Shown here in pieces: positions 36,360 through 59,095 of a stretch of 64,000 bases of DNA; positions within the stretch are counted from its first letter, which is position 1; the number at the start of each line of letters is the position of its first letter. The position numbers were made by a program, and so were the translations under genes. This stretch comes from Burkholderiales bacterium. Its GTDB lineage: Bacteria; Pseudomonadota; Gammaproteobacteria; Burkholderiales; Casimicrobiaceae. The notes beneath the pieces are model-generated. The model was not told the origin of the DNA. It saw nothing but the letters and a program-made list of their open reading frames with translations, and ran no database searches. The stretch is from NCBI GenBank assembly GCA_905339295.1, contig CAJPFI010000013.1:62001-126000 (forward strand), written 5' to 3'.

Positions 36360-37298
36360 TCAGCCGGCCTCGCCGGTCGCGGGCACGAGGTCGCCGCCCT
36401 CGCGTCGGATCGCGCCGGCTCGCAGAAGTTCATCGACGAGCCACGCGGCGAACGCCTGCGGCGCCATCCGCAGCACGGCCGCGTTCAGGTCCCTGTGGAA
36501 GCCCACCTGCTGGACGTAGTCGGCCAGCCGCGCCTCGGGGAAGCGGCGGCGGTGCAGCAGCGAATAGCTGAAGATCGCCTTGGCGGCGTAGCGCGCGACG
36601 CGCTCGTCGTCGGCCTCGAACGCCGCGAGCCGCTGGTACGCGTAGTCGAGCGACGACGCGACCTCGTCGAACGGCTCGCCATGGCCGGGGATCACGGTCC
36701 GGACGTCGAGCGACGCCAGCATGTCGAGCGTCGCGCGCGTCGCCGGCATCGCCGCCGGATCCATCGCGCGCGGCATCACGAAGCCGAACCCGCGCTGCCA
36801 GAGCGCGTCCCCCGAGATCAGCACGCGGTGCTCCGCGTTGTAGAAGACGAGCGCGCCCATGTCGTGCCCCGGGGCGGCGAGCGCGAGCCATTCGAGGTCG
36901 CCCCACGGGTGAACGCTGCCCGACCCGATGCGCTCGTCGACGGCGAAGCGGTCGACGTGCTGGTCGGCATAGCCGTAGAGAAGCCTGCGCTCGTCCCACG
37001 CCTCGAACAGCGGCGCCTCGGCGGCCGGCACCGCGATCGGGCAGGCGTAGCGCGCGGCCAGCGCCGCGTTGCCGCCGACGTGATCGGAGTGGCCGTGCGT
37101 GTTGACGATCTTCGCGAGCGGCTCGCCGGCGAGCCCGCGGTGGCTCGCGACCAGCGCGAGCGTGAGGTCGGCGTGCTGCACGTAGCCGGTGTCGACCAGA
37201 ACGTGGCCGTCGCGGCTCTTCAGGAGCACGTTGTTGGCGGACAGCCAGTCGCGCACGAACACGTGGACCGACGCCGGCAGGCGCGGAGCGGAGCTCAC
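36360..37298 (-). CDS. MBL-fold metallo-hydrolase
   Basis: 312-residue metallo-beta-lactamase fold enzyme. The metal site NTHGHSDHVGG is complete, with later ligands in APGHDMGAL, ISGDALWQ and TVIPGHGEPF. VDTGYVQHADLTLAL, YLSANNVLL-type opening and YAYQRLAAFEADDE helical C-terminus place it among small MBL hydrolases of unknown substrate. GTG start at 37298 overlaps the stop of mfd (GTGA), so it is read and translated after mfd. This pairing may link it to DNA repair, though it could be only positional. Confidence 0.87.
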   Translation of the reverse strand: MSSAPRLPASVHVFVRDWLSANNVLLKSRDGHVLVDTGYVQHADLTLALVASHRGLAGEPLAKIVNTHGHSDHVGGNAALAARYACPIAVPAAEAPLFEAWDERRLLYGYADQHVDRFAVDERIGSGSVHPWGDLEWLALAAPGHDMGALVFYNAEHRVLISGDALWQRGFGFVMPRAMDPAAMPATRATLDMLASLDVRTVIPGHGEPFDEVASSLDYAYQRLAAFEADDERVARYAAKAIFSYSLLHRRRFPEARLADYVQQVGFHRDLNAAVLRMAPQAFAAWLVDELLRAGAIRREGGDLVPATGEAG

Positions 37299-40780: not shown

Positions 40781-40910
40781 CGCGGTCGCCTGCGTACGGT
40801 GGCGGTCAGGCTGCGGTTCGGCACGGGCGCCGGAAGCGGCGCGAGGCGATCGATTATACGTGCGCGCGGCGGAGCTCCCGTCCGCGCGGCGCGTGCGACA
40901 ATCGCGCCCG

Positions 40911-41864
40911 ATGGAACGCCCCGCTCCCGCGCCGGCCGCCGCGACCCCGACCGCTGCGAGGAGCCGCGCATCGCCCTACCTGCTGCTCACGCTCACTCCG
41001 CTGTTCTGGTCGGGCAACTGGATCATCGGCCGCGGGCTCCACCACGACATCCCGCCGATGGGGATGACGTTCTTCCGCTGGCTCTTCGCGATCGCGATCC
41101 TCGCGCCGTTCGCGCTGTCGCACGTTCGGCGCGACTGGGCGCTGATCGTGGCGAACCGGCGCGCGATGCTTGGGCTGGGCGCCATCGGCATCGGCACGCA
41201 CAACGCGCTCGCCTACCTCGGCCTCAACTACACGACCGCCACCAACGGCGTGATCCTCAACTCGTTCATTCCGGTGATGATCGTCGCCATCGCATGGCTG
41301 TTCCTGCGCGAGCGGCTGAAGCCGCTGCAGGTCGCCGGCGTCGCGATTTCGCTCGCCGGCGTGCTCGCGATCCTGTCGCAGGGCTCGCTCGCGGCGCTCG
41401 CCGCGTTCCGGCTGAACGGCGGCGACCTGCTGGTGATCCTGTCGATGGCGATGTGGTCGGCCTACACGGTCGCGCTGCGCTGGCGGCCTGTCGGGCTCCA
41501 TCCGCTGTCGTTCCTGTTCGCGATCGCCGTGATCGGCGACCTGTGCGTGCTGCCGCTGTGGCTGGGCGAGATGGCGCTCGGGCGGTACATCGCGTGGTCG
41601 CCGGAGGCGCTCGTCGCGCTGGCCTCGGTCGCGCTGTTCTCGTCGGTGCTCGCGTACATCTTCTGGAACCGCGGCGTCGAGCAGGTGGGCGCCGCGGTCG
41701 CCGGGCTGTTCGTCCACCTGATGCCGGTGTTCGGCGTGCTCCTCGCGTGGATCTTCCTCGGCGAGACGCTCGGAGGGCACCACGTGGCCGGCATCGCGCT
41801 GATCCTGACGGGCATCGCGCTGACCAGCCGCGCCGGCGCGGCGAAGGGCGCGACGGCGGAGTGA
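40911..41864 (+). CDS. EamA/DMT-family transporter
   Basis: 317-residue inner-membrane drug/metabolite transporter with ten hydrophobic segments and two EamA repeats. Marks: LTPLFWSGNWIIGRGL, PPMGMTFFRWLFAIAILAPF, ALAYLGLNYTTATNGVILNS, IAWLFLRERLKPLQVAGVAI, and in the second half VGAAVAGLFVHLMPVFGVLL, FLGETLGGHHVAGIALILTG. ATG 40911 begins a short Pro/Ala-rich cytosolic tail. Divergent from mfd with about 130 bases between. Seven bases separate its stop from the glycosyltransferase-like gene, so the two are co-transcribed. Substrate unknown; many relatives export amino acids or metabolites. Confidence 0.93.
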   Translation: MERPAPAPAAATPTAARSRASPYLLLTLTPLFWSGNWIIGRGLHHDIPPMGMTFFRWLFAIAILAPFALSHVRRDWALIVANRRAMLGLGAIGIGTHNALAYLGLNYTTATNGVILNSFIPVMIVAIAWLFLRERLKPLQVAGVAISLAGVLAILSQGSLAALAAFRLNGGDLLVILSMAMWSAYTVALRWRPVGLHPLSFLFAIAVIGDLCVLPLWLGEMALGRYIAWSPEALVALASVALFSSVLAYIFWNRGVEQVGAAVAGLFVHLMPVFGVLLAWIFLGETLGGHHVAGIALILTGIALTSRAGAAKGATAE

Positions 41865-41870
41865 GGAGCC

Positions 41871-42734
41871 GTGAGGCACCCGCCCCCCTACAACCTGCTG
41901 CTGGTGTCGCCGTACGGGCTCGCCCCGGCGGGGGCGCTGGGCGGCGCCGCCGAGATGGTGCACAGCGGCCTCGCGCGGCTGGGGCTTCCGGCGAGGATCG
42001 TCGTGAACGAGTACCTGCGCGACGCGACGAACATCGTGTTCGCCGTCCACAACCTCGACCCGTCGCTGGTCGGCGCGCTGCCGCCGGGAACCATCGTGTA
42101 CAACACCGAGATGGTCGTCGAGCGGTCGCACTTCGTCGATGCGATGCTCCCGTTCGTGCGCGCGTTCGAGACCTGGGACTACAGCGCGGCCAACGTTCGC
42201 GGATGGAACGCGCTCGGCGCCGGCGAGCGCGTGCGACTCGTGCGTCCCGCCTACCTCCCGGAGTTCACGACGGTCGCGCCTGACGCGCCGCGCGACGTCG
42301 ACGTCCTGTTCTACGGATGGCCGAGCCCGCGGCGCGACCGGGCGATCGGCGCGTTGCGCGAGGCCGGCCTGGACGTGCGCGCGATGACCGCGATCTTCGG
42401 CGAGGAGCTCCGGTCGTGGATCGCGCGGTCGCGCATCCTGCTCAACGTCCACCATCGCGAGGGCGCCGTGTTCGAGTTCGCGCGCATGTCCACCGCGCTC
42501 GCCAACCGGCGCTGCTTCGTGTCCGAGTCCGGCGGCGAGGAGGACGTCGACCCGTCGCTGCTGCCCGGATTCGTCAGGGGCACGATCGAGGAGCTTCCCG
42601 CGCTGTGCCGCGGACTCGTCGACGACGGGCCGCGGCGCGAGTCGATCGCCCTGGCGGGATTCGAGCGCTACAGCGCGACCGATTTCTCGCGCGAACTCGC
42701 CGACGCGCTCGGGATCGAGCCGCCGCGTCGATAG
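41871..42734 (+). CDS. Glycosyltransferase-like protein (GT-B type)
   Basis: 287-residue protein whose two halves resemble a GT-B glycosyltransferase of the CgeB/YkvP type. Opening YNLLLVSPYGLAPAGALGGA, central VDVLFYGWPSPRRDRAIGAL with NVHHREGAVFEFARMS and RRCFVSESGG are the marks of such proteins. The catalytic residues are not certain. GTG start at 41871, seven bases after the EamA stop. The partner genes on the other strand (DegT aminotransferase, ManC, P450) would suit a glycan pathway, hence a transfer or modification role is a reasonable inference. Confidence 0.68.
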   Translation: MRHPPPYNLLLVSPYGLAPAGALGGAAEMVHSGLARLGLPARIVVNEYLRDATNIVFAVHNLDPSLVGALPPGTIVYNTEMVVERSHFVDAMLPFVRAFETWDYSAANVRGWNALGAGERVRLVRPAYLPEFTTVAPDAPRDVDVLFYGWPSPRRDRAIGALREAGLDVRAMTAIFGEELRSWIARSRILLNVHHREGAVFEFARMSTALANRRCFVSESGGEEDVDPSLLPGFVRGTIEELPALCRGLVDDGPRRESIALAGFERYSATDFSRELADALGIEPPRR

Positions 42735-42754
42735 TGGCGGCGGGCGCGTGCGCG

Positions 42755-44092
42755 TCAGCGCGTGCGCAGCGAAACGACCATCGGGCGCGAAGGCCGCCCG
42801 ACCCAGAATCCCCCGTGCGCAACCGGCACCGCGTCGATCGGCTCGATGCGAAAGCGCAGCAGCGCGCGCGACACGATCGACTTGAACTCGATCTGCGCGA
42901 GCCGCGCGCCGAGGCAGTGCCGCGCCCCGCCCGAGAAGGTCAGGTTGCGGAACGGGCGCGCGAGGCGCGCGCCCGCGGGATCGGCATAGCGATCCGGATC
43001 GAACCGGTGCGGATCCCGGTGCAGGTCCGCGCGCCGGTGCACGCCGCCGACGGCGACGGCGATCCGCGTGCCCCGGCCGACCCGGAAGCCGCCGATGTCC
43101 ACGTCGTCGCCCGCCGTCCGCGGGATGTTGACGATCGGCGGGAAGACGCGGCCGATCTCGAGCATGTAGCGGTCCAGGAACGGCAGGCGGTCGAGCGCCT
43201 CCGGCGACAGCGGCCGATCCGCGGTCGCGCCGGCATCCGCGAGCTCGCGCAACAGGCGAACGCCGAGCGCGGAATGCGTTCCGAGGTGGTGGAGGGCGCG
43301 CGAGTACATGACCATGCCGGTGTCGTGCCCCGCGATCAGCAGGATCGCGAGGAACGGGACCGCCGGATCGCGCGGCCCGCCGTCGGGCGGAAGGGCGGCG
43401 ACAACGAGGTCGGCCATCGTCCCGTCGCCGCGACCCTCGCCCGCGCGGCGTCGCGCGACGATGTCCGCGAGCACGTCGAGGAACGCCGATCGCGCCACGT
43501 TCGCGCGCGCGAGGAACGCCTCGCGCCCCTCGCGCATGAAGTCGTAGCCGTCGAGGACCACCGACACCGCGGCGAATGCGCGGTCGGCTTCGTCGGCGCT
43601 CATGCCGCCCGCGCCGCACGCGACCGCGCGGAAGGTCAGGCGACGCATCGCCGGGAACAGGTCGAGCGTGCCCGCGTCGGCCCATCGGTCGAGCTCGGCG
43701 TCGACGACCGCGAGAACGCCCGGCAGGCAGCGCTGCAGCGCCGGACCGGCAAACGCGGGCACGATCATCCGCCGATGCTCGGCATGCAACGGCTCGTCGA
43801 CGTTGAGCACCGCATAGCCGAACCCGCTCCCCAGCAGCGGCGCCCAGCCGCCCTCGCTCGAGAACGACTCGCGGCGTGTCAGCAGCGCATCCTCGGCGAG
43901 TTCCGGCGCGACCAGGTGGATGCACGGGCCGGCGTCGGGACCGAACGGAATGTCGATGCGCATGACCGGCCCGAGGCGCACGGCGGCCTCCGCCTGGACG
44001 ATCGGCAGCCGCCCCGCCACGACGTCCTCGGCGTCGACCGACAGTCTCGGCGCGGCGGCGAGCGCGTCCGGCAGGTCGATCGCGGCCGTCAT
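42755..44092 (-). CDS. Cytochrome P450
   Basis: 445-residue bacterial soluble P450 with all key elements: LLIAGHDTGM with the AGxDT oxygen-activating motif at 254-258, ExxR (EIGR, Glu312/Arg315), FSGGARHCLGARLAQIE with the heme cysteine at 393, and DPHRFDPDRYAD. It has no membrane anchor and no fused reductase, so it needs a ferredoxin or flavodoxin partner, none of which is nearby. ATG 44092 overlaps the DegT stop as ATGA. It is the last gene of a tightly coupled four-gene operon (manC, GNAT, DegT, P450). Substrate unknown; context suggests a sugar-linked or surface metabolite. Confidence 0.94.
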   Translation of the reverse strand: MTAAIDLPDALAAAPRLSVDAEDVVAGRLPIVQAEAAVRLGPVMRIDIPFGPDAGPCIHLVAPELAEDALLTRRESFSSEGGWAPLLGSGFGYAVLNVDEPLHAEHRRMIVPAFAGPALQRCLPGVLAVVDAELDRWADAGTLDLFPAMRRLTFRAVACGAGGMSADEADRAFAAVSVVLDGYDFMREGREAFLARANVARSAFLDVLADIVARRRAGEGRGDGTMADLVVAALPPDGGPRDPAVPFLAILLIAGHDTGMVMYSRALHHLGTHSALGVRLLRELADAGATADRPLSPEALDRLPFLDRYMLEIGRVFPPIVNIPRTAGDDVDIGGFRVGRGTRIAVAVGGVHRRADLHRDPHRFDPDRYADPAGARLARPFRNLTFSGGARHCLGARLAQIEFKSIVSRALLRFRIEPIDAVPVAHGGFWVGRPSRPMVVSLRTR

Positions 44093-45261
44093 GTCGCGGG
44101 GGTGGCGCGGCGGGTTCCCGCCTGCGCGGTGACGGCGTCGAGCGCCGCCGAGAGCGCGTCGACGACGCGCTGCTGGTCGGCGGCATCCATGCCGAGCCAG
44201 CTCGGCAGCGTCGTGACCTCGAGGTCGGCGTCGCAGCAGTGCGCGCCGCGAGCCTGCGGATCGCCGAACAACGGATGGTGCGAGAGCGACGGGTAGTGGA
44301 CGCTGGTCGCGATCCCGGCGCGCGCCATCGCGCTGCGGATGCCGTCGCGCAGCGGCGCCGGCAGCCGGACGACCGCCATCAGGAAGCTGTCGTCGTCCCG
44401 GCGCTCGAGCATGCGCACGGCGGGCGCGAGCGGGGCGAGCAACCTCGCGTAGCGCTCGAGCAGCGCCCGCCGCTTCGCGCGCGTCGACGCGAGCGACGGG
44501 ATGCAGCCGTTCGCGATCGCGGCGGCGACGTCGCTCATCCGCAGCTTGAGTCCGGGCACGGGCTCGAACGCGTAGTCGGCGTGGCGCAGCGACGACGCGC
44601 GCTGCGGCGTGTCGACCGCGAGCCCGAGGTTCGAGACGGCGCGCGCGAGGTCCTCGAAGGAGGCGTCGCGCCCCCACAGCAGGCCGCCCTCGCCGCACGG
44701 GATCTCCTTCACCGCGTTGAAGCTGTAGCAGGCGATGTCGCCGACCGGGGCCGCCGCATCGAGCAGGTCGACGCGGTGCGCGCAATCCTCGATCAGCACG
44801 AGGCCGCGGCGGTCGGCGAGCGCGCGCAACGCGTCGAGGTCGCGCGCGCGCTGGCCGTAGAGGTGCACGACGAGGATCGCCCGCGTGCGCGGCGTGATCG
44901 CACGCTCCGCCGCGGCGGCGTCGAGCGTCAGGTCGTCCTGCCGCACGTCCGCCAGGACCGGCGTCACGCCCGCCTGCAGGAACGCCATGCCCGACGCGAC
45001 GAACGAGAGCGACGGCACGACGATCTCGGGGCGCTCGCCGCGCGCGCGGTCCGCGAGAAGGCGGCCGGCGAGGTAGAGCGAGGCGGTGCAGCACGTCGTC
45101 GCGAGCGCCCAGCCGCCGCGCCGCGCGGTGAATGCGCCTTCGAGCTCGCGGCACTCGGGGCCGTAGCCGATCCAGCCGCTTCGCAGCGCCGCCGCGGCGC
45201 GCGCCTGTGCCAGCTCCGGCACGACCGCGCGGAACAACGGAACCGGCGACACACCGCTCAT
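44089..45261 (-). CDS. DegT/DnrJ/EryC1-type PLP aminotransferase
   Basis: 390 residues. Family features: LRSGWIGYGPECRELEGAF, an ATTCCTASLYLAG stretch for PLP phosphate, VLIEDCAHR with Asp159 contacting the pyridine nitrogen, and CYSFNAVKEIPCGEGG with the PLP lysine Lys185. C-terminal SVHYPSLSHHPLF is typical of nucleotide-sugar aminotransferases, which install amino groups on keto sugars attached to GDP or TDP. ATG 45261 overlaps the GNAT stop (ATGA) and its own stop overlaps the P450 start. With ManC upstream, a GDP-sugar substrate is likely, but no 4,6-dehydratase (gmd) is present in the window. Confidence 0.9.
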   Translation of the reverse strand: MSGVSPVPLFRAVVPELAQARAAAALRSGWIGYGPECRELEGAFTARRGGWALATTCCTASLYLAGRLLADRARGERPEIVVPSLSFVASGMAFLQAGVTPVLADVRQDDLTLDAAAAERAITPRTRAILVVHLYGQRARDLDALRALADRRGLVLIEDCAHRVDLLDAAAPVGDIACYSFNAVKEIPCGEGGLLWGRDASFEDLARAVSNLGLAVDTPQRASSLRHADYAFEPVPGLKLRMSDVAAAIANGCIPSLASTRAKRRALLERYARLLAPLAPAVRMLERRDDDSFLMAVVRLPAPLRDGIRSAMARAGIATSVHYPSLSHHPLFGDPQARGAHCCDADLEVTTLPSWLGMDAADQQRVVDALSAALDAVTAQAGTRRATPAT

Positions 45262-45923
45262 GGCTCCTCCCCTCGCGCGGCCCCGCCACCGGCCAGCGCC
45301 CGCCACTCGTCGCGCGTCATCTCCAGCCGCAACAGCGCCACTTCCGTGCCGTCGGCGCGCGTCACCGTCACGGAGTCGACCGGTCGCGCCCCGCCCAGCA
45401 GCACGGCGCGCCGCGACAGCGCATTATCGCCGATCACGACGCTGGTCATGCGCCTCACGCCCATCCGGCCGAACGCGAAGTCGCGCAGCGCCATGCCGGC
45501 GTCGGCCGCGACGCCCGGGTAGCCGGCCGGAAACGCCTGCCGGTGCGAATGGAGCGCGCGCGCGTCGACCATCACGCGGCCGAGTTCGAGCTCGGCCCGC
45601 GCCGGGTCGTAGCCGCTCCAGCCGATCGCGCCGACGAAGGTGCCGCTCGCGGAGAGGCGGATCGCGAGGACCGCCTCGCGCGGCCGCGGCATGCCGTGCG
45701 CGAGCCACTCGCGATTGCGCGCGAGGTCGAGCGGACGCGGGTCGAGGAAGCGGTTGCGCACCCCGTCGCGGTTGCGCAGCGCGGTGATCCGGTCGTACTC
45801 GTGCGCCTCGGGCCAGCCGACCGCAACGCAGCGCCCGGCGAAGAGCGGGCCGGACAACGGGATCGGGCCGCGAACGCCGTCCGCCTCGCCGGGCCGGCCG
45901 CCCGTGCCCGTCGCGCCGGTCAC
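45258..45923 (-). CDS. GNAT-family acetyltransferase
   Basis: 221 residues. The GNAT layout is RCVAVGWPEAHEYDRITALR, LAHGMPRPREAVLAIRLSAS, GAIGWSGYDPARAELELGRV and GMALRDFAFGRMGVRRMTSV, in the order of beta strands and the acetyl-CoA loop; the latter replaces the canonical Q/RxxGxG/A. Target may be an amino sugar made by the DegT enzyme, in analogy with perosamine N-acetyltransferases, though those are usually left-handed beta-helix enzymes. GTG start at 45923 overlaps the manC stop and its stop overlaps the DegT start. No other annotation supported. Confidence 0.8.
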   Translation of the reverse strand: MTGATGTGGRPGEADGVRGPIPLSGPLFAGRCVAVGWPEAHEYDRITALRNRDGVRNRFLDPRPLDLARNREWLAHGMPRPREAVLAIRLSASGTFVGAIGWSGYDPARAELELGRVMVDARALHSHRQAFPAGYPGVAADAGMALRDFAFGRMGVRRMTSVVIGDNALSRRAVLLGGARPVDSVTVTRADGTEVALLRLEMTRDEWRALAGGGAARGEEP

Positions 45924-47365
45924 CGCCCGTACCGATCGTCGAAGCGCTCGATGTCGTCCTCGCCCAGGTAGTCGCCGCACTGGACCTCGACGACGACGAG
46001 CGCGTCCTCGCCCGTGTTCTCGAGCCGGTGCACCGAGCCCGCGGGAACGAACGTCGACTCGTCGCGCGCGACGTCGAACGAGCGATCCGCGTTCGTCACG
46101 CGCGCGCGCCCCTGCACGACGACCCAGTGCTCGCTGCGATGGCGGTGCCGTTGCAGCGACAGCGCCTCGCCCGGCGACACCTCGATGCGCTTGATCTTGA
46201 AGTGCGGCGCTTCGAGCAGCACCGTGTACGCGCCCCACGGCCGCGACACCGTGCGATGCGTGCGCCAGGCCTCGTGGCCGCGCGTCCTGAGCGCCGCGAC
46301 CACGTCCTTCACCTGCTGCAGGTGGTCGCGATGGGCGACCAGCGTGGCGTCGGCGGTGTCGACGATGACCAGGTCGCGCACGCCGACGGTCGCCACGACC
46401 CGGTCCTCGGCGTGGATCATCGTGTCGCGCGTGTCGATCGCGACGCTCTCGCCCTGGCGGCGGTTGCCCTCGCCGTCCGGCGCGACGAGGTCGCCCACCG
46501 CCTGCCACGAGCCGACGTCGCTCCAGTCGAACGCGCCGCGCACGGCGACGACGCCGGACGCCTTCTCCATCACCGCGTAGTCGAGCGAGATGTCGGGCAT
46601 CGCGTCGAACGCGACCGGGTCGATCTCGACGCGCGCCTGGTGCGGATCGGCGGGCAGCAGCGCGAACGCGCGGCGCGCCGCCTGCGCGACCGCCGGCGCG
46701 TGCGCGTCGAGCGCGGCGAGGATCGCGCGCGGCGTGAAGCAGAACATCCCGGCGTTCCACAGGTGGCGTCCCGACGCCACGAACGCCTCGGCGTCCGCGC
46801 GCGTCGGCTTCTCGATGAAGCGCTCGACCGCGACGACCGGCGGCCGCTCGCGATCGAGCGGCGCGCCGCACGCGAGGTAGCCGAAGCCGGTCTCCGGGCG
46901 CGACGGCGGGATGCCGAACGTGACCAGGCGACCGGCGGCGGCGAACGCGGCCGCGCGCCCGACCGCCGCGACGAACGCTTCGACGTCGTGGATCAGGTGG
47001 TCGGCCGGCAGCACGAGCAGAGGCGCGTCGTCGCCGACGTGGCGCGCCGCCCACAGCGCGCCGATGGCGATGGCGGGCGCGGTGTTTCGGCCGAACGGCT
47101 CGAGCAGGAACACGGTGCGACCGGATGCCCCGCCCGGCAGCGCGTCGTAGGCGTCGCGCGTCGCGAAATAGTGCTCGTCGCGCGTGATCGTGACGAGCGG
47201 TCCCGCACCGGGAATCGCGAGCGCGCGCGCCGCCGTGCGCCCCAGCAGCGTGCCGCCGTCGGGAAGCCGCATGAACGGCTTCGGCGCGGACTCGCGCGAC
47301 AGCGGCCACAGCCGGGTGCCGGCGCCGCCGGAGAGAATCAGGGGAACGACGGGGCGGGAGGACAT
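45920..47365 (-). CDS. manC: Mannose-1-phosphate guanylyltransferase / mannose-6-phosphate isomerase
   Basis: 481-residue bifunctional enzyme making GDP-mannose. The pyrophosphorylase opening VPLILSGGAGTRLWPLSRES with PKPFMRL is intact, and VERFIEKPTRADAEAFV follows. A cupin-type isomerase domain at the end (RPWGAYTVLLEA, IEVSPGEALSLQRHRHRSEH, FVPAGSVHRLENTG) completes it. ATG 47365 opens the four-gene operon; TAGAGT at 47398-47393 is a -10 candidate on the minus strand. GDP-mannose feeds capsule, LPS or exopolysaccharide synthesis. Here it may feed the amino-sugar branch implied by the DegT gene. Confidence 0.94.
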   Translation of the reverse strand: MSSRPVVPLILSGGAGTRLWPLSRESAPKPFMRLPDGGTLLGRTAARALAIPGAGPLVTITRDEHYFATRDAYDALPGGASGRTVFLLEPFGRNTAPAIAIGALWAARHVGDDAPLLVLPADHLIHDVEAFVAAVGRAAAFAAAGRLVTFGIPPSRPETGFGYLACGAPLDRERPPVVAVERFIEKPTRADAEAFVASGRHLWNAGMFCFTPRAILAALDAHAPAVAQAARRAFALLPADPHQARVEIDPVAFDAMPDISLDYAVMEKASGVVAVRGAFDWSDVGSWQAVGDLVAPDGEGNRRQGESVAIDTRDTMIHAEDRVVATVGVRDLVIVDTADATLVAHRDHLQQVKDVVAALRTRGHEAWRTHRTVSRPWGAYTVLLEAPHFKIKRIEVSPGEALSLQRHRHRSEHWVVVQGRARVTNADRSFDVARDESTFVPAGSVHRLENTGEDALVVVEVQCGDYLGEDDIERFDDRYGR

Positions 47366-56164: not shown

Positions 56165-57610
56165 GTGAACATCACCGACCCCTTGCGCCGCCACGCGCGC
56201 GAGCGCCCGGACGCGATCGCCGTCATTCGCCCGCGCGGCTCGCCGCTCTCCTGGCGCGAGTTCGACCGGGCGATCGACGTCGTGGCGAGACGGCTGCTCG
56301 CGGCGGGCATCCGCGCCGGCGACATCGTGGTCCTGGCGATCGTCTGGCCGTACCGATTGCTGCTGCTCGAGCTCGCGCTGGCACGCATCGGCGCCGCCGG
56401 CGCGACACCCGGAGTGCCGGCCGAAACGGTGGCCGCCACCGTCGTCGACGTCGCGCGCGATGGCTTGCCGCTCCCGCGCACGATCGTCGTCGACGGCGGC
56501 TGGTTCGACACGCCGGCGTCGGGAGCCGATGCGCCGCCGCTGGCGCCGGATGCGGACGGCAGCGCGGTCGCGATCGTCTGCCCGTCGTCCGGGACCACGG
56601 CCGCGCCGAAGCACATCGCCATCAGCCACGACCGGATGGCGGCGCGCGTCGCGGCCGCGAATCGCGGCATTCCCCTGCCGCCCGCGCCGCGCCAGATCTG
56701 CATTCCCGGCGCGTCCAGCGGCTTCGGGTTCCTGTCGATCCTGCGCGTTCTGTGGAGCGGCGGCACGATCGTCACGGCGGTGACGGCCGGGGAGATCGTC
56801 GCCGCGATCGACGCGCACCGGGTCAACCGGCTCGTGATGATGCCGTTCTGGGTCGACCGGATCGTCGCGGCGTTGCCGGAACGCGGCGGGCCGCTGGCGT
56901 CGCTCGAGCAGGTCGAGTTCGGGGGCGCGTGCCTGCCGTCCCACCTTCGCGACGTTGCGCAGCGGCGCCTGGGCGGCGCGCTCCATTCGGTGTACGGCGC
57001 GACCGAAGGGGGATTCATCGCCACCGGGCCGATGTCGGCGCTCGACGCCGAAGCCGGCGAGGTGGGTCGGCTGATCGACGGCATCGAGCTCGAGGCGGTC
57101 GACGCGACCGGGGTGCCGCTGCCGCGCGGCGTGGACGGGATGCTGCGCGTGCGCGGCGCGGGATTCGTCGACGCGTACCTGGCCGACGCGGAGGCGTCGT
57201 CGGAGACGTTCCGCGACGGATGGGTCCGCACGGCCGACCAGGGAAGCGTCGCGCCGGACGGCACCGTGACCGTTGCCGGGCGCGTCGGCGACATGATCAA
57301 CGTCGGTGGCTACAAGATGAGCCCGGGCCGGGTCGAGAGGATCCTGCTGTCGCTCGACGGAATCGACGACGCCGCGGCGTTCGGCGTGCCGGATGCCCGG
57401 GGAATCACGCGGCTTTGCGCGGTGGTCGTGTCGCGCGTGGCGGTCGATCTCGCGGCGGTCGACGCGATGTTCCGCCGCATGTCGCCGATTCTCGCGCCGT
57501 CGGTCGTGATGCAGGTGGGCGCGGTGCCGCGCAACGAAGCGGGCAAGATCGTGCGCCGCGAGCTGGTGTCGATGGTCGCCGCGTCGGGGGCGCTCCTCGC
57601 GCCGGGCTGA
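56165..57610 (+). CDS. Acyl-CoA synthetase (AMP-forming, ANL family)
   Basis: 481-residue adenylate-forming enzyme. The P-loop motif SSGTTAAPKH is at about residue 141, SVYGATEGGFIATGP forms the A5 motif, GWVRTADQGSV and GRVGDMINVGGYKMSPG the hinge, and the end NEAGKIVRREL has the catalytic lysine. GTG start at 56165 follows GAA. It activates an organic acid as the CoA or another thioester; relatives include benzoate and short-chain acid CoA ligases. Precedes the sulfatase by 81 bases, with no proven link. Confidence 0.88.
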   Translation: MNITDPLRRHARERPDAIAVIRPRGSPLSWREFDRAIDVVARRLLAAGIRAGDIVVLAIVWPYRLLLLELALARIGAAGATPGVPAETVAATVVDVARDGLPLPRTIVVDGGWFDTPASGADAPPLAPDADGSAVAIVCPSSGTTAAPKHIAISHDRMAARVAAANRGIPLPPAPRQICIPGASSGFGFLSILRVLWSGGTIVTAVTAGEIVAAIDAHRVNRLVMMPFWVDRIVAALPERGGPLASLEQVEFGGACLPSHLRDVAQRRLGGALHSVYGATEGGFIATGPMSALDAEAGEVGRLIDGIELEAVDATGVPLPRGVDGMLRVRGAGFVDAYLADAEASSETFRDGWVRTADQGSVAPDGTVTVAGRVGDMINVGGYKMSPGRVERILLSLDGIDDAAAFGVPDARGITRLCAVVVSRVAVDLAAVDAMFRRMSPILAPSVVMQVGAVPRNEAGKIVRRELVSMVAASGALLAPG

Positions 57611-57691
57611 CGCCGCGCCCCGTCCAGGCGTCCGCATGGCCGTTGTGCGGCGGCCGGCACGCCCGCGCACGCCGCGCGGTATCCTTGCCGG

Positions 57692-59095
57692 ATGAAGCCC
57701 AATCTCCTCGTCATCCTGATCGACGACCTGCGCCACGACGAGTTCGGCGCCGGCGGCCACCCGTACATGAAGACGCCGAACGCCGACCGGCTCGCGCGCG
57801 AAGGCGCGCTGTTCGAGCGGGCGTTCCACACGACGCCGATCTGCTCGCCCAACCGCGCGTCGATCGTGACCGGCCAGTACGCGAGCCGCCACGGGATCAT
57901 CGACAACGTCGCGCGCGACGCGATGAGCCACCGGCTGCCGAATTACCACCTCGACCTGCAGCGGCTGGGTTACGAGACCGCGCACATCGGAAAGTGGCAC
58001 ATGGGCAACGACGGGGCGCCGCGGCCCGGCTACGACTACTGGGTGAGCTTCGACGGCCACGGCAGGCTCGTGGACCCGACGCTGAACCACGACGGGCTGC
58101 ACGTGCAGCACAAGGGCTACATCACCGACATCATGAACCGGCTGGCGGTCGAGTACCTCGAGCGCAAGCGGACGAAGCCGTTCTCGCTGTTCTTCGCGCA
58201 CAAGGCGGTGCACCCGGACGCCGAGCAGGCTGCCGACGGCACGCTGCGCATCTCCGCGCTGGGCGCCTACGTCGCGGCCGACCGGCACAAGGATCTCTAC
58301 CGCGACGCCGTGTTCCCGCGCACGCCCAACATGATGACGCCCGACGAGGTCGTGCGGCACAAGCCCGCATGGGCCGAGTGCTTCGCGATGAAGTCGGGCG
58401 AGAACTCGCGCAAGGTGCTCGACGCGCTCAAGTCCGGCTCGCAGGACGAGATACGGGCACGCGCCCGGATGATGGCGGCGGTCGACGAAGGCATGGGCGC
58501 GATCTTCGACACGCTCGAGCGGCAGGGGCAGCTCGACAACACGTTCATCGTGTTCCTCGGCGACAACGGATTCTTCTTCGGCGAGCACGCGCTGGGGCCC
58601 GAGCGGCGTTTCGCCTACGAGGAGGGGATCCGGTCGCCCTTCGTCGTGCGCTATCCGCCCAGGGTGAAGGCCGGCACGCGCGTGCATGACCTCGTGATCT
58701 GCCAGGACATCGCGCCGACGATGATCGGCCTCGCGGGCGGGAAGCCCGGGCCGCAGATCCAGGGGCGGTCGCTGCTGCCGCTCTTCGCGCGCGGCTCGAA
58801 GCCGTCGCGCATCGGCAGCCGCAAGGGGTGGAGAAAGTCGTTCCTGATCGAGTACTGGGCCGAGCAGGCGATGCCCTGGCTCGTCGGCATGACCTACAAG
58901 GCGGTGCGCACCGACCGCTGGAAGTACATCCACTGGGTCAACCGCGGGCGCGCGGGCGAACTGGACGAGCTCTACGACCTCGATAGCGATCCGTTCGAGC
59001 TCGAGAACCTCAACCGCAGCCGCAACGCCGCGCCGGTGCGCGAGCGGTTGCGCCGCGAGGTGCGCAAGCTGATCGCGGACGCAGCGGGGCTTTGA
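57692..59095 (+). CDS. Sulfatase (formylglycine-dependent)
   Basis: 467-residue type I sulfatase. Metal site LVILIDDLRHDE (Asp11-Asp12), the cysteine to be converted to formylglycine in PICSPNRASIVTG (Cys51, Arg55), GKWHMGND, and FLGDNGFFFGEH for the C-terminal metal ligands are all present. Sequence is near the choline-sulfatase/N-sulfoglucosamine group. No signal peptide is evident, so it is probably cytosolic, and a formylglycine-generating enzyme must exist elsewhere in the genome. The substrate is unknown. Plausibly removes sulfate or phosphonate from an organic compound. Confidence 0.93.
   Translation: MKPNLLVILIDDLRHDEFGAGGHPYMKTPNADRLAREGALFERAFHTTPICSPNRASIVTGQYASRHGIIDNVARDAMSHRLPNYHLDLQRLGYETAHIGKWHMGNDGAPRPGYDYWVSFDGHGRLVDPTLNHDGLHVQHKGYITDIMNRLAVEYLERKRTKPFSLFFAHKAVHPDAEQAADGTLRISALGAYVAADRHKDLYRDAVFPRTPNMMTPDEVVRHKPAWAECFAMKSGENSRKVLDALKSGSQDEIRARARMMAAVDEGMGAIFDTLERQGQLDNTFIVFLGDNGFFFGEHALGPERRFAYEEGIRSPFVVRYPPRVKAGTRVHDLVICQDIAPTMIGLAGGKPGPQIQGRSLLPLFARGSKPSRIGSRKGWRKSFLIEYWAEQAMPWLVGMTYKAVRTDRWKYIHWVNRGRAGELDELYDLDSDPFELENLNRSRNAAPVRERLRREVRKLIADAAGL

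Follow-up and report, generated by a model that had tools for sequence, protein, structure and literature searches.

The window, i.e., the whole stretch of 64,000 nucleotides that was analysed, from a Burkholderiales bacterium of the family Casimicrobiaceae, contains a cassette of four genes which code for a GNAT acyltransferase, a DegT/DnrJ/EryC1/StrS aminotransferase, a cytochrome P450 and, on the opposite strand, a probable glycosyltransferase (GT). These four genes are linked, lie in different chromosomal settings, are under purifying selection, and were not found in most of the relatives. That the unit travelling among the relatives is GNAT-DegT-P450-GT, and not manC-GNAT-DegT-P450, is well supported. 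The cassette's probable role is to build an unusual amino sugar and to transfer it to an acceptor; for its substrate and for the step performed by the P450, we infer the scheme presented below.

Gene content and junctions

The cassette and its neighbours in the window are arranged as follows:

40860-41864, plus strand: EamA transporter (Pfam EamA); putative older neighbour outside the cassette
41871-42734, plus strand: GT-like gene (287 aa), converging on the P450 gene; probable GT-B fold glycosyltransferase, cassette member
42755-44092, minus strand: cytochrome P450 (445 aa), open frame, PF00067; cassette member
44089-45261, minus strand: DegT/DnrJ/EryC1/StrS aminotransferase (390 aa), open frame, PF01041; cassette member
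45258-45923, minus strand: GNAT acyltransferase (221 aa), open frame, PF13302; cassette member
45920-47365, minus strand: ManC, open frame, bifunctional GMP/PMI (NCBIfam TIGR01479); putative older neighbour outside the cassette
41865-45919, no strand: interval missing between EamA and manC in the cassette-free genomes G015 and G001

An earlier note on this DNA had described the frames for ManC, GNAT, DegT and P450 as a translationally coupled operon, and its coordinates and the three 4-nt overlaps (GTGA at manC/GNAT, ATGA at GNAT/DegT, ATGA at DegT/P450) are exact. Its further reading, that the overlaps imply joint work of the products, is weakened by the fact that such overlaps are common in the window: according to our own gene calls, they occur at 8 of the 40 same-strand neighbour pairs, these three included, and at 5 of the 37 other pairs. 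As a sign of shared function, the overlaps are hence weak evidence. Concerning the relatives, in which all junction lengths rest on start codons picked by the analyst, GNAT/DegT is the sole junction kept as an ATGA overlap (in the window's own genome G000 and in G004, G011 and G019; G031 has a 15-nt gap). The DegT/P450 junction is a gap of 5 nt in G004 and of 2 nt in G031, and the GT-like gene intervenes there in G011 and G019; manC and GNAT are separated by 17 nt in G004 and are not neighbours in G011, G019 and G031. Co-transcription of EamA and the GT-like gene is possible because the two overlap by 4 nt in G004 and lie 6 nt apart in the window. Neither a consensus promoter nor a terminator was found, a search that is uninformative in such GC-rich DNA.

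Family support from NCBIfam and Pfam is strong for ManC (505 bits against TIGR01479, cut-off 373), for DegT (231 bits against PF01041, cut-off 19.8) and for the P450 (128 bits against PF00067, cut-off 22.8), and modest for GNAT (30 bits against PF13302, cut-off 25.4; above the cut-off in all three members scanned, i.e., window, G031 and G011).

The chromosomal site

In the window, the GT-like gene (forward) and the genes for P450, DegT and GNAT (all reverse; together 41871-45923) lie between EamA and manC. The gene order in the cassette-free genomes G015 (locus L101) and G001 (L102) is mfd, EamA, manC, small ORF, response regulator, with EamA and manC adjoining and their stop codons 53 nt (G015) or 67 nt (G001) apart; no match to the P450 (E<=1e-40) or to GNAT (E<=1e-8) was found in these two genomes. 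The succession mfd-EamA-manC without the cassette exists also in G019 (L099), where the cassette is situated elsewhere, in the neighbourhood of metH and a rhodanese gene. On a short contig of G031, manC adjoins EamA (called as two pieces); the cassette of this genome is flanked by a universal-stress-protein-like gene on one side and, on the second of its two contigs, by a SpoVR-like gene. Thus, EamA and manC adjoin each other without the cassette in four of the six manC loci that were inspected in addition to the two at the cassette. This adjacency is not universal: four genes separate manC and EamA in G002 (L103), and EamA was not called beside manC in G007 (L105).

The gene manC is found in 45 of 61 relatives (E<=1e-100), with a single TIGR01479 match in G000, but it stands beside the cassette in only two of the five cassette carriers (G000 and G004), and it was not found in G011, a genome that is 87% complete. 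ManC was therefore rejected as a cassette member, and EamA, which adjoins manC in the cassette-free loci, was rejected as the cassette's exporter on the same ground.

Comparison of the flanking genes suggests that manC and EamA are older residents of the site, and that the cassette either is a newcomer or was lost from G015 and G001. These two genomes stand no further from G000 than G004 does, with 89% (G015), 85% (G001) and 84% (G004) for mfd (partly incomplete genes), 79%, 77% and 76% for manC, and 81%, 78% and 63% for EamA.

Co-occurrence and arrangement of the cassette

The earlier note had suggested testing whether manC, GNAT, DegT and P450 always co-occur. Among 149 related genomes, the window's own included, the P450 (E<=1e-40) is found in five and GNAT (E<=1e-8) in five, and these are the identical genomes: G000, G004, G011 and G019, which belong to one genus, and G031 from another genus of the same family. 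Each of the five carries GNAT, DegT and P450 on the same strand in that order, with the GT-like gene on the opposite strand. Judged by the condition that the earlier note had itself named as refuting, neighbours that differ freely across related genomes, manC drops out of the proposed set, the other three genes stand, and the GT-like gene joins them. Likewise, from the supposition that the two opposite-strand genes are partners, the part concerning the GT-like gene holds (5/5) and that concerning EamA does not.

Co-occurrence rests on the P450 and GNAT searches in the 149 genomes; the GT-like gene was searched in 7 genomes, and its profile (E<=0.01) matches in all five cassette genomes and has no second hit in them. 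Within the family, the GNAT profile matches in 5 of 64 genomes. In wider draws, for which few candidates were scored per genome, the GNAT profile found its own genome only among 398 genomes from the phylum, and the DegT profile (E<=1e-110) the window's own protein only among 399 genomes from the order. An alignment scan for DegT over 84,980 species genomes gave eight loci, four of which are the carriers G004, G031, G011 and G019; it requires one of two exact 8-residue patterns, such that missed relatives are likely.

The four genes exist in two relative arrangements: the GT-like gene converges on the P450 gene in G000, G004 and G031, and is situated between DegT and P450 in G011 and G019. In G031, the cassette spans two contigs, and the GT-like gene is present in two pieces at the contig ends (profile positions 173-290 and 5-159), which were kept unjoined. 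There are three chromosomal settings, i.e., between mfd-EamA and manC (G000, G004), by metH and rhodanese (G011, G019), and between the universal-stress-protein-like and SpoVR-like genes (G031), the names of the metH, rhodanese, universal-stress and SpoVR-like flanks being the analyst's reading of translations. This recurrence of the same four genes in five genomes, three settings and two arrangements makes a chance neighbourhood with no common function most improbable, even if 4-nt overlaps are common in the window (8/40).

The cassette genes are open wherever complete, and their identities among genomes broadly follow one order. Their dN/dS values (NG86) range from 0.20 to 0.46 overall, with 0.20-0.29 for the pair G011/G019 and 0.31-0.46 for the pair G000/G004 (0.20 and 0.43 for the GT-like gene); for comparison, 0.32-0.35 was obtained for manC, 0.18-0.29 for mfd and 0.43-0.69 for EamA.

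No relative was found in the scan of viral contigs. Plasmid searches gave 200 records for the P450, all distant (best row 31% identity), and 114 for DegT, all below 60% identity; the two plasmid DegT loci inspected (H16, H17) are polysaccharide clusters. No mobile-element remains and no convincing repeats were recognised at the cassette edges: among the matches listed (20 of 27 direct families, 25 of 28 inverted pairs), the repeats are imperfect matches in GC-rich DNA, with the exception of a single perfect inverted pair of 17 nt, which lies within genes.

Predicted functions of the proteins

DegT possesses Lys185, presumably the PLP lysine, in the motif SFNAVKE, which aligns to SFHAIKN of ArnB (1mdo) and is invariant in all five carriers. 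Its nearest solved relatives are mostly nucleotide-sugar aminotransferases, among them ArnB, TlmJ and perosamine synthase; ArnB is the best of them (1mdo, 9e-41), a second list is led by 8sng and 1mdo, and CalS13 (4zas) as well as the perosamine-route structures 3bn1 and 3dr7 are also among the matches. By these comparisons, DegT has no close solved relative, and it stays below every NCBIfam equivalog cut-off, with 166.5 bits for ArnB (cut-off 631), 153 for PseC (423.5), and 107 and 139 for the two WecE models (435 and 375). A separate arn-like cluster is situated on contig C42 of the own genome, and its DegT, with 314 bits on the ArnB model, is also below the cut-off.

In a tree of 12 sequences with midpoint root, from which ArnB was left out and in which the Treponema row is of unusual composition, the window's DegT forms a clade with DegTs of Granulicella and Treponema, apart from five other relatives (support 100/100). 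The clade thus has members in Acidobacteriota and Spirochaetota; planctomycete relatives (L024, L025) group with other DegTs outside it. The Treponema DegT is flanked by glycosyltransferases, and the gene after it codes for a remote homologue of GNAT; this homology is weak (hhalign E 5e-5, probability 67%), the protein having no Pfam match and being missed by the genome search. In the genome of Granulicella, which has the DegT, no GT match was found, and the GNAT match does not rise above chance level. No P450 match lies within the fetched flanks of either DegT locus.

The AF2 model of GNAT (pLDDT 84) places GNAT folds at the head of the Foldseek list. Most of the structural neighbours are acyltransferases that act on polyamines or peptides or that are uncharacterised, and sugar substrates are not singled out by this search; the nucleotide-sugar GNAT FdhC ranks 47th among the best 50 matches listed.

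The P450 retains in all five carriers Cys393 (in CLG), E312-x-x-R315 and A254-G-x-[DE]-T258, which we take to be the heme ligand, the ExxR motif and the acid-alcohol pair, respectively. The nearest solved relatives of its profile are CYP120A1, then the unnamed P450 7wzl, CYP51 and CYP46A1, and its best NCBIfam match, far below the cut-off, is pentalenene oxygenase. Because of these matches to CYP120A1, CYP51, CYP46A1 and pentalenene oxygenase, whose substrates are presumably lipophilic, the P450 leans towards a lipophilic substrate or acceptor. P450-derived GT activators of the TIGR04515 type are known to lack the heme cysteine; the window's protein does not fit this type (20 vs 343 bits; Cys393 invariant). 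No gene for a redox partner or for an acceptor was found within the cassette.

The GT-like protein has no Pfam match at gathering score; PF13524 (Glyco_trans_1_2) is weakly reached by all five homologues (best 1.8e-5; the window's own 0.024). Its AF2 model (pLDDT 80) matches GT-B enzymes in Foldseek, e.g., MshA with the best E value of 2.2e-8, at TM scores by query of 0.43-0.68 among the 50 matches listed. N192, H194, E202 and R205 are invariant, G031 being judged by its C-terminal piece. From the model, a glycosyltransferase of GT-B fold is probable.

Possible sugar supply

The earlier note had remarked that no 4,6-dehydratase is present, and that it might lie elsewhere. This applies to RmlB, the product of which is a dTDP-linked 4-keto-6-deoxy sugar: it is above cut-off in all five carriers and is encoded in G000 by an rmlBACD cluster away from the cassette. 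In G000 it does not apply to Gmd, since the five PF16363 matches of this genome (E<=1e-30; 98% complete) comprise RmlB, two GalE, a weak GalE-like protein and one without assignment. Because RmlB is encoded elsewhere in the carriers, its presence suggests that the substrate is a dTDP-sugar and not a GDP-sugar; the gene being common, this support is not specific.

A route in which ManC feeds, within the same operon, a perosamine-like GDP-amino sugar with GDP-mannose appears very unlikely. It agrees with the overlap of manC and GNAT in the window, with the position of manC 17 nt before GNAT in G004, and with Gmd, which passes the cut-off in G004 and narrowly misses it in G019. However, what GDP-perosamine would call for, Gmd in G000 and a constant linkage of manC, was not found: none of the PF16363 matches of G000 was assigned to Gmd, manC accompanies the cassette in two of five carriers (G011, G019 and G031 lack this adjacency, and no manC was found in the 87% complete G011), and it adjoins EamA also without the cassette.

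A possible role of the cassette

Our preferred explanation, to which we give nearly an even chance, is that of a sporadic four-gene glycosylation cassette by which an N-acyl amino sugar would be made and transferred, with the P450 hydroxylating the acceptor. DegT would aminate a keto nucleotide sugar, most likely dTDP-4-keto-6-deoxyhexose from the housekeeping RmlB; GNAT would N-acylate the newly made amine, as WecD does after WecE and PseH after PseC; and the GT-B protein would transfer the finished sugar. The P450 may hydroxylate the acceptor, probably a hydrophobic one, and thereby create or decorate the glycosylation site. ManC and EamA, as putative older neighbours, would stand outside this scheme. 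Beside it can be set the Treponema pair of DegT and GNAT, which lies among glycosyltransferases.

Alternatively, the P450 might act on the sugar itself by N- or C-hydroxylating the nucleotide amino sugar made by DegT, such that acylation by GNAT would yield a hydroxylated or hydroxamate sugar. This is rather unlikely, with a small but real chance. The P450 accompanies DegT, GNAT and the GT-like gene in all five carriers, CalS13 is among the DegT matches, and the Treponema locus, without a P450 match in the fetched stretch, is consistent with the P450 being an add-on to the DegT-GNAT pair; yet the P450 is nearer to CYP120A1 and CYP51 than to any P450 that we know to act on sugars. More specifically, the set might be a compact, mobile betaproteobacterial cassette whose P450 oxidises the nucleotide amino sugar and whose GNAT acylates it, the resulting hydroxylated or N-hydroxy-N-acyl (hydroxamate) sugar being transferred by the small GT-B enzyme; this is improbable. 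To our knowledge, such sugars occur in a few actinomycete antibiotics only.

With a keto substrate made by the P450, an alternative which the earlier note had raised, the cassette might also belong to a non-sugar pathway: the P450 would oxidise a small molecule to a ketone, DegT would aminate this ketone, GNAT would cap the amine and the GT-B enzyme would add an ordinary sugar. DegT's position in a clade of its own, and its fit to no named sugar aminotransferase equivalog, would agree with this, whereas its nearest solved relatives are nucleotide-sugar aminotransferases such as ArnB, TlmJ and perosamine synthase, and the flanks fetched around the DegT genes of Granulicella and Treponema contain no P450 match. 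We consider such a pathway improbable.

The earlier note's idea of a four-gene system is therefore to be divided: GNAT, DegT and P450 belong together (P450 and GNAT in 5 of 149 genomes, DegT beside them in all five), and ManC, which 45 of 61 relatives possess and which neighbours the cassette in two of five carriers, does not. The unit to study is GNAT-DegT-P450-GT, which at about 4 kb is expressible whole, and which with its P450 might yield an oxidised amino sugar or glycolipid of a new kind.

Comparison with known systems

DegT and GNAT are paired for N-acylated amino sugars in WecE/WecD and in PseC with PseH, and sets of DegT, GNAT and GT are familiar amino-sugar machinery. The cassette resembles both pairs in combining a DegT aminotransferase with a GNAT N-acyltransferase, and the PseC and WecE models give weak matches to the window's DegT. 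It differs from them in scores far below the cut-offs, in the lack of a dehydratase within the cassette, and in the added P450. PseH is described in PMC4363471 as the acetyltransferase of a UDP-4-amino sugar. ArnB, the UDP-L-Ara4N aminotransferase, is the best solved relative of the window's DegT; however, the score of 166.5 bits falls far short of the cut-off of 631, and the genome has its separate arn-like cluster. The perosamine synthase route (Gmd and PerA) is similar as regards the relatedness of DegT (3bn1, 3dr7) and differs in that no Gmd was found in G000 and manC is not a conserved partner.

A DegT enzyme together with a P450 occurs in calicheamicin biosynthesis, where CalS13 (DegT) and CalE10, a P450 N-oxidase, reportedly serve to oxidise a nucleotide amino sugar. 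The likeness would be one of function, and we know of no GNAT in the CalS13/CalE10 step. It is unusual for a P450 to belong to so small a set of DegT, GNAT and GT and to be found with it at different chromosomal sites.

Adjacent genes and further matches

EamA lies outside the cassette (GNAT, DegT, P450 and the glycosyltransferase-like gene on the opposite strand), though in one cassette carrier, G004, it shares a 4-nt overlap with the glycosyltransferase-like gene (L013:3871-3874). In the window, the gene for a metallo-beta-lactamase-fold hydrolase (36360-37298) overlaps the last 4 nt of mfd; among the loci compared, the overlap of these two genes is also found in G019 and G007, and in the cassette-free relative G015 one ORF separates them. 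A sulfatase with an SGSH C-terminal domain adjoins an AMP-binding enzyme at window positions 56165-59095.

Apart from the cassette, the window's genome possesses an arn-like cluster (G000:C42, locus L104:678-8007) with genes for an aminotransferase, an ArnC-like protein, a formyltransferase, a UDP-4-keto-pentose/UDP-xylose synthase and an ArnD-like deformylase. A second, weaker P450 match is situated in the same genome (G000:C23:29520-29834), and another such match is present in the cassette-free G015, on its contig C4.

Related DegT genes in other genomes

A Granulicella MAG contains a single DegT (L022:9833-11113) with around 48% identity to that of the window, flanked by an ileS-like gene on one side and a uvrA-like gene on the other (names read from the translations); this MAG genome yielded no match to the glycosyltransferase-like gene and a GNAT match at chance level only. 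In a Treponema MAG (L023:3189-11329), the genes that follow a DegT of the same clade as the window's encode a remote GNAT homologue and a pair of group 1 glycosyltransferases, together with a protein kinase, a histidine phosphatase and an AMP-binding enzyme; this unusual combination merits separate study.
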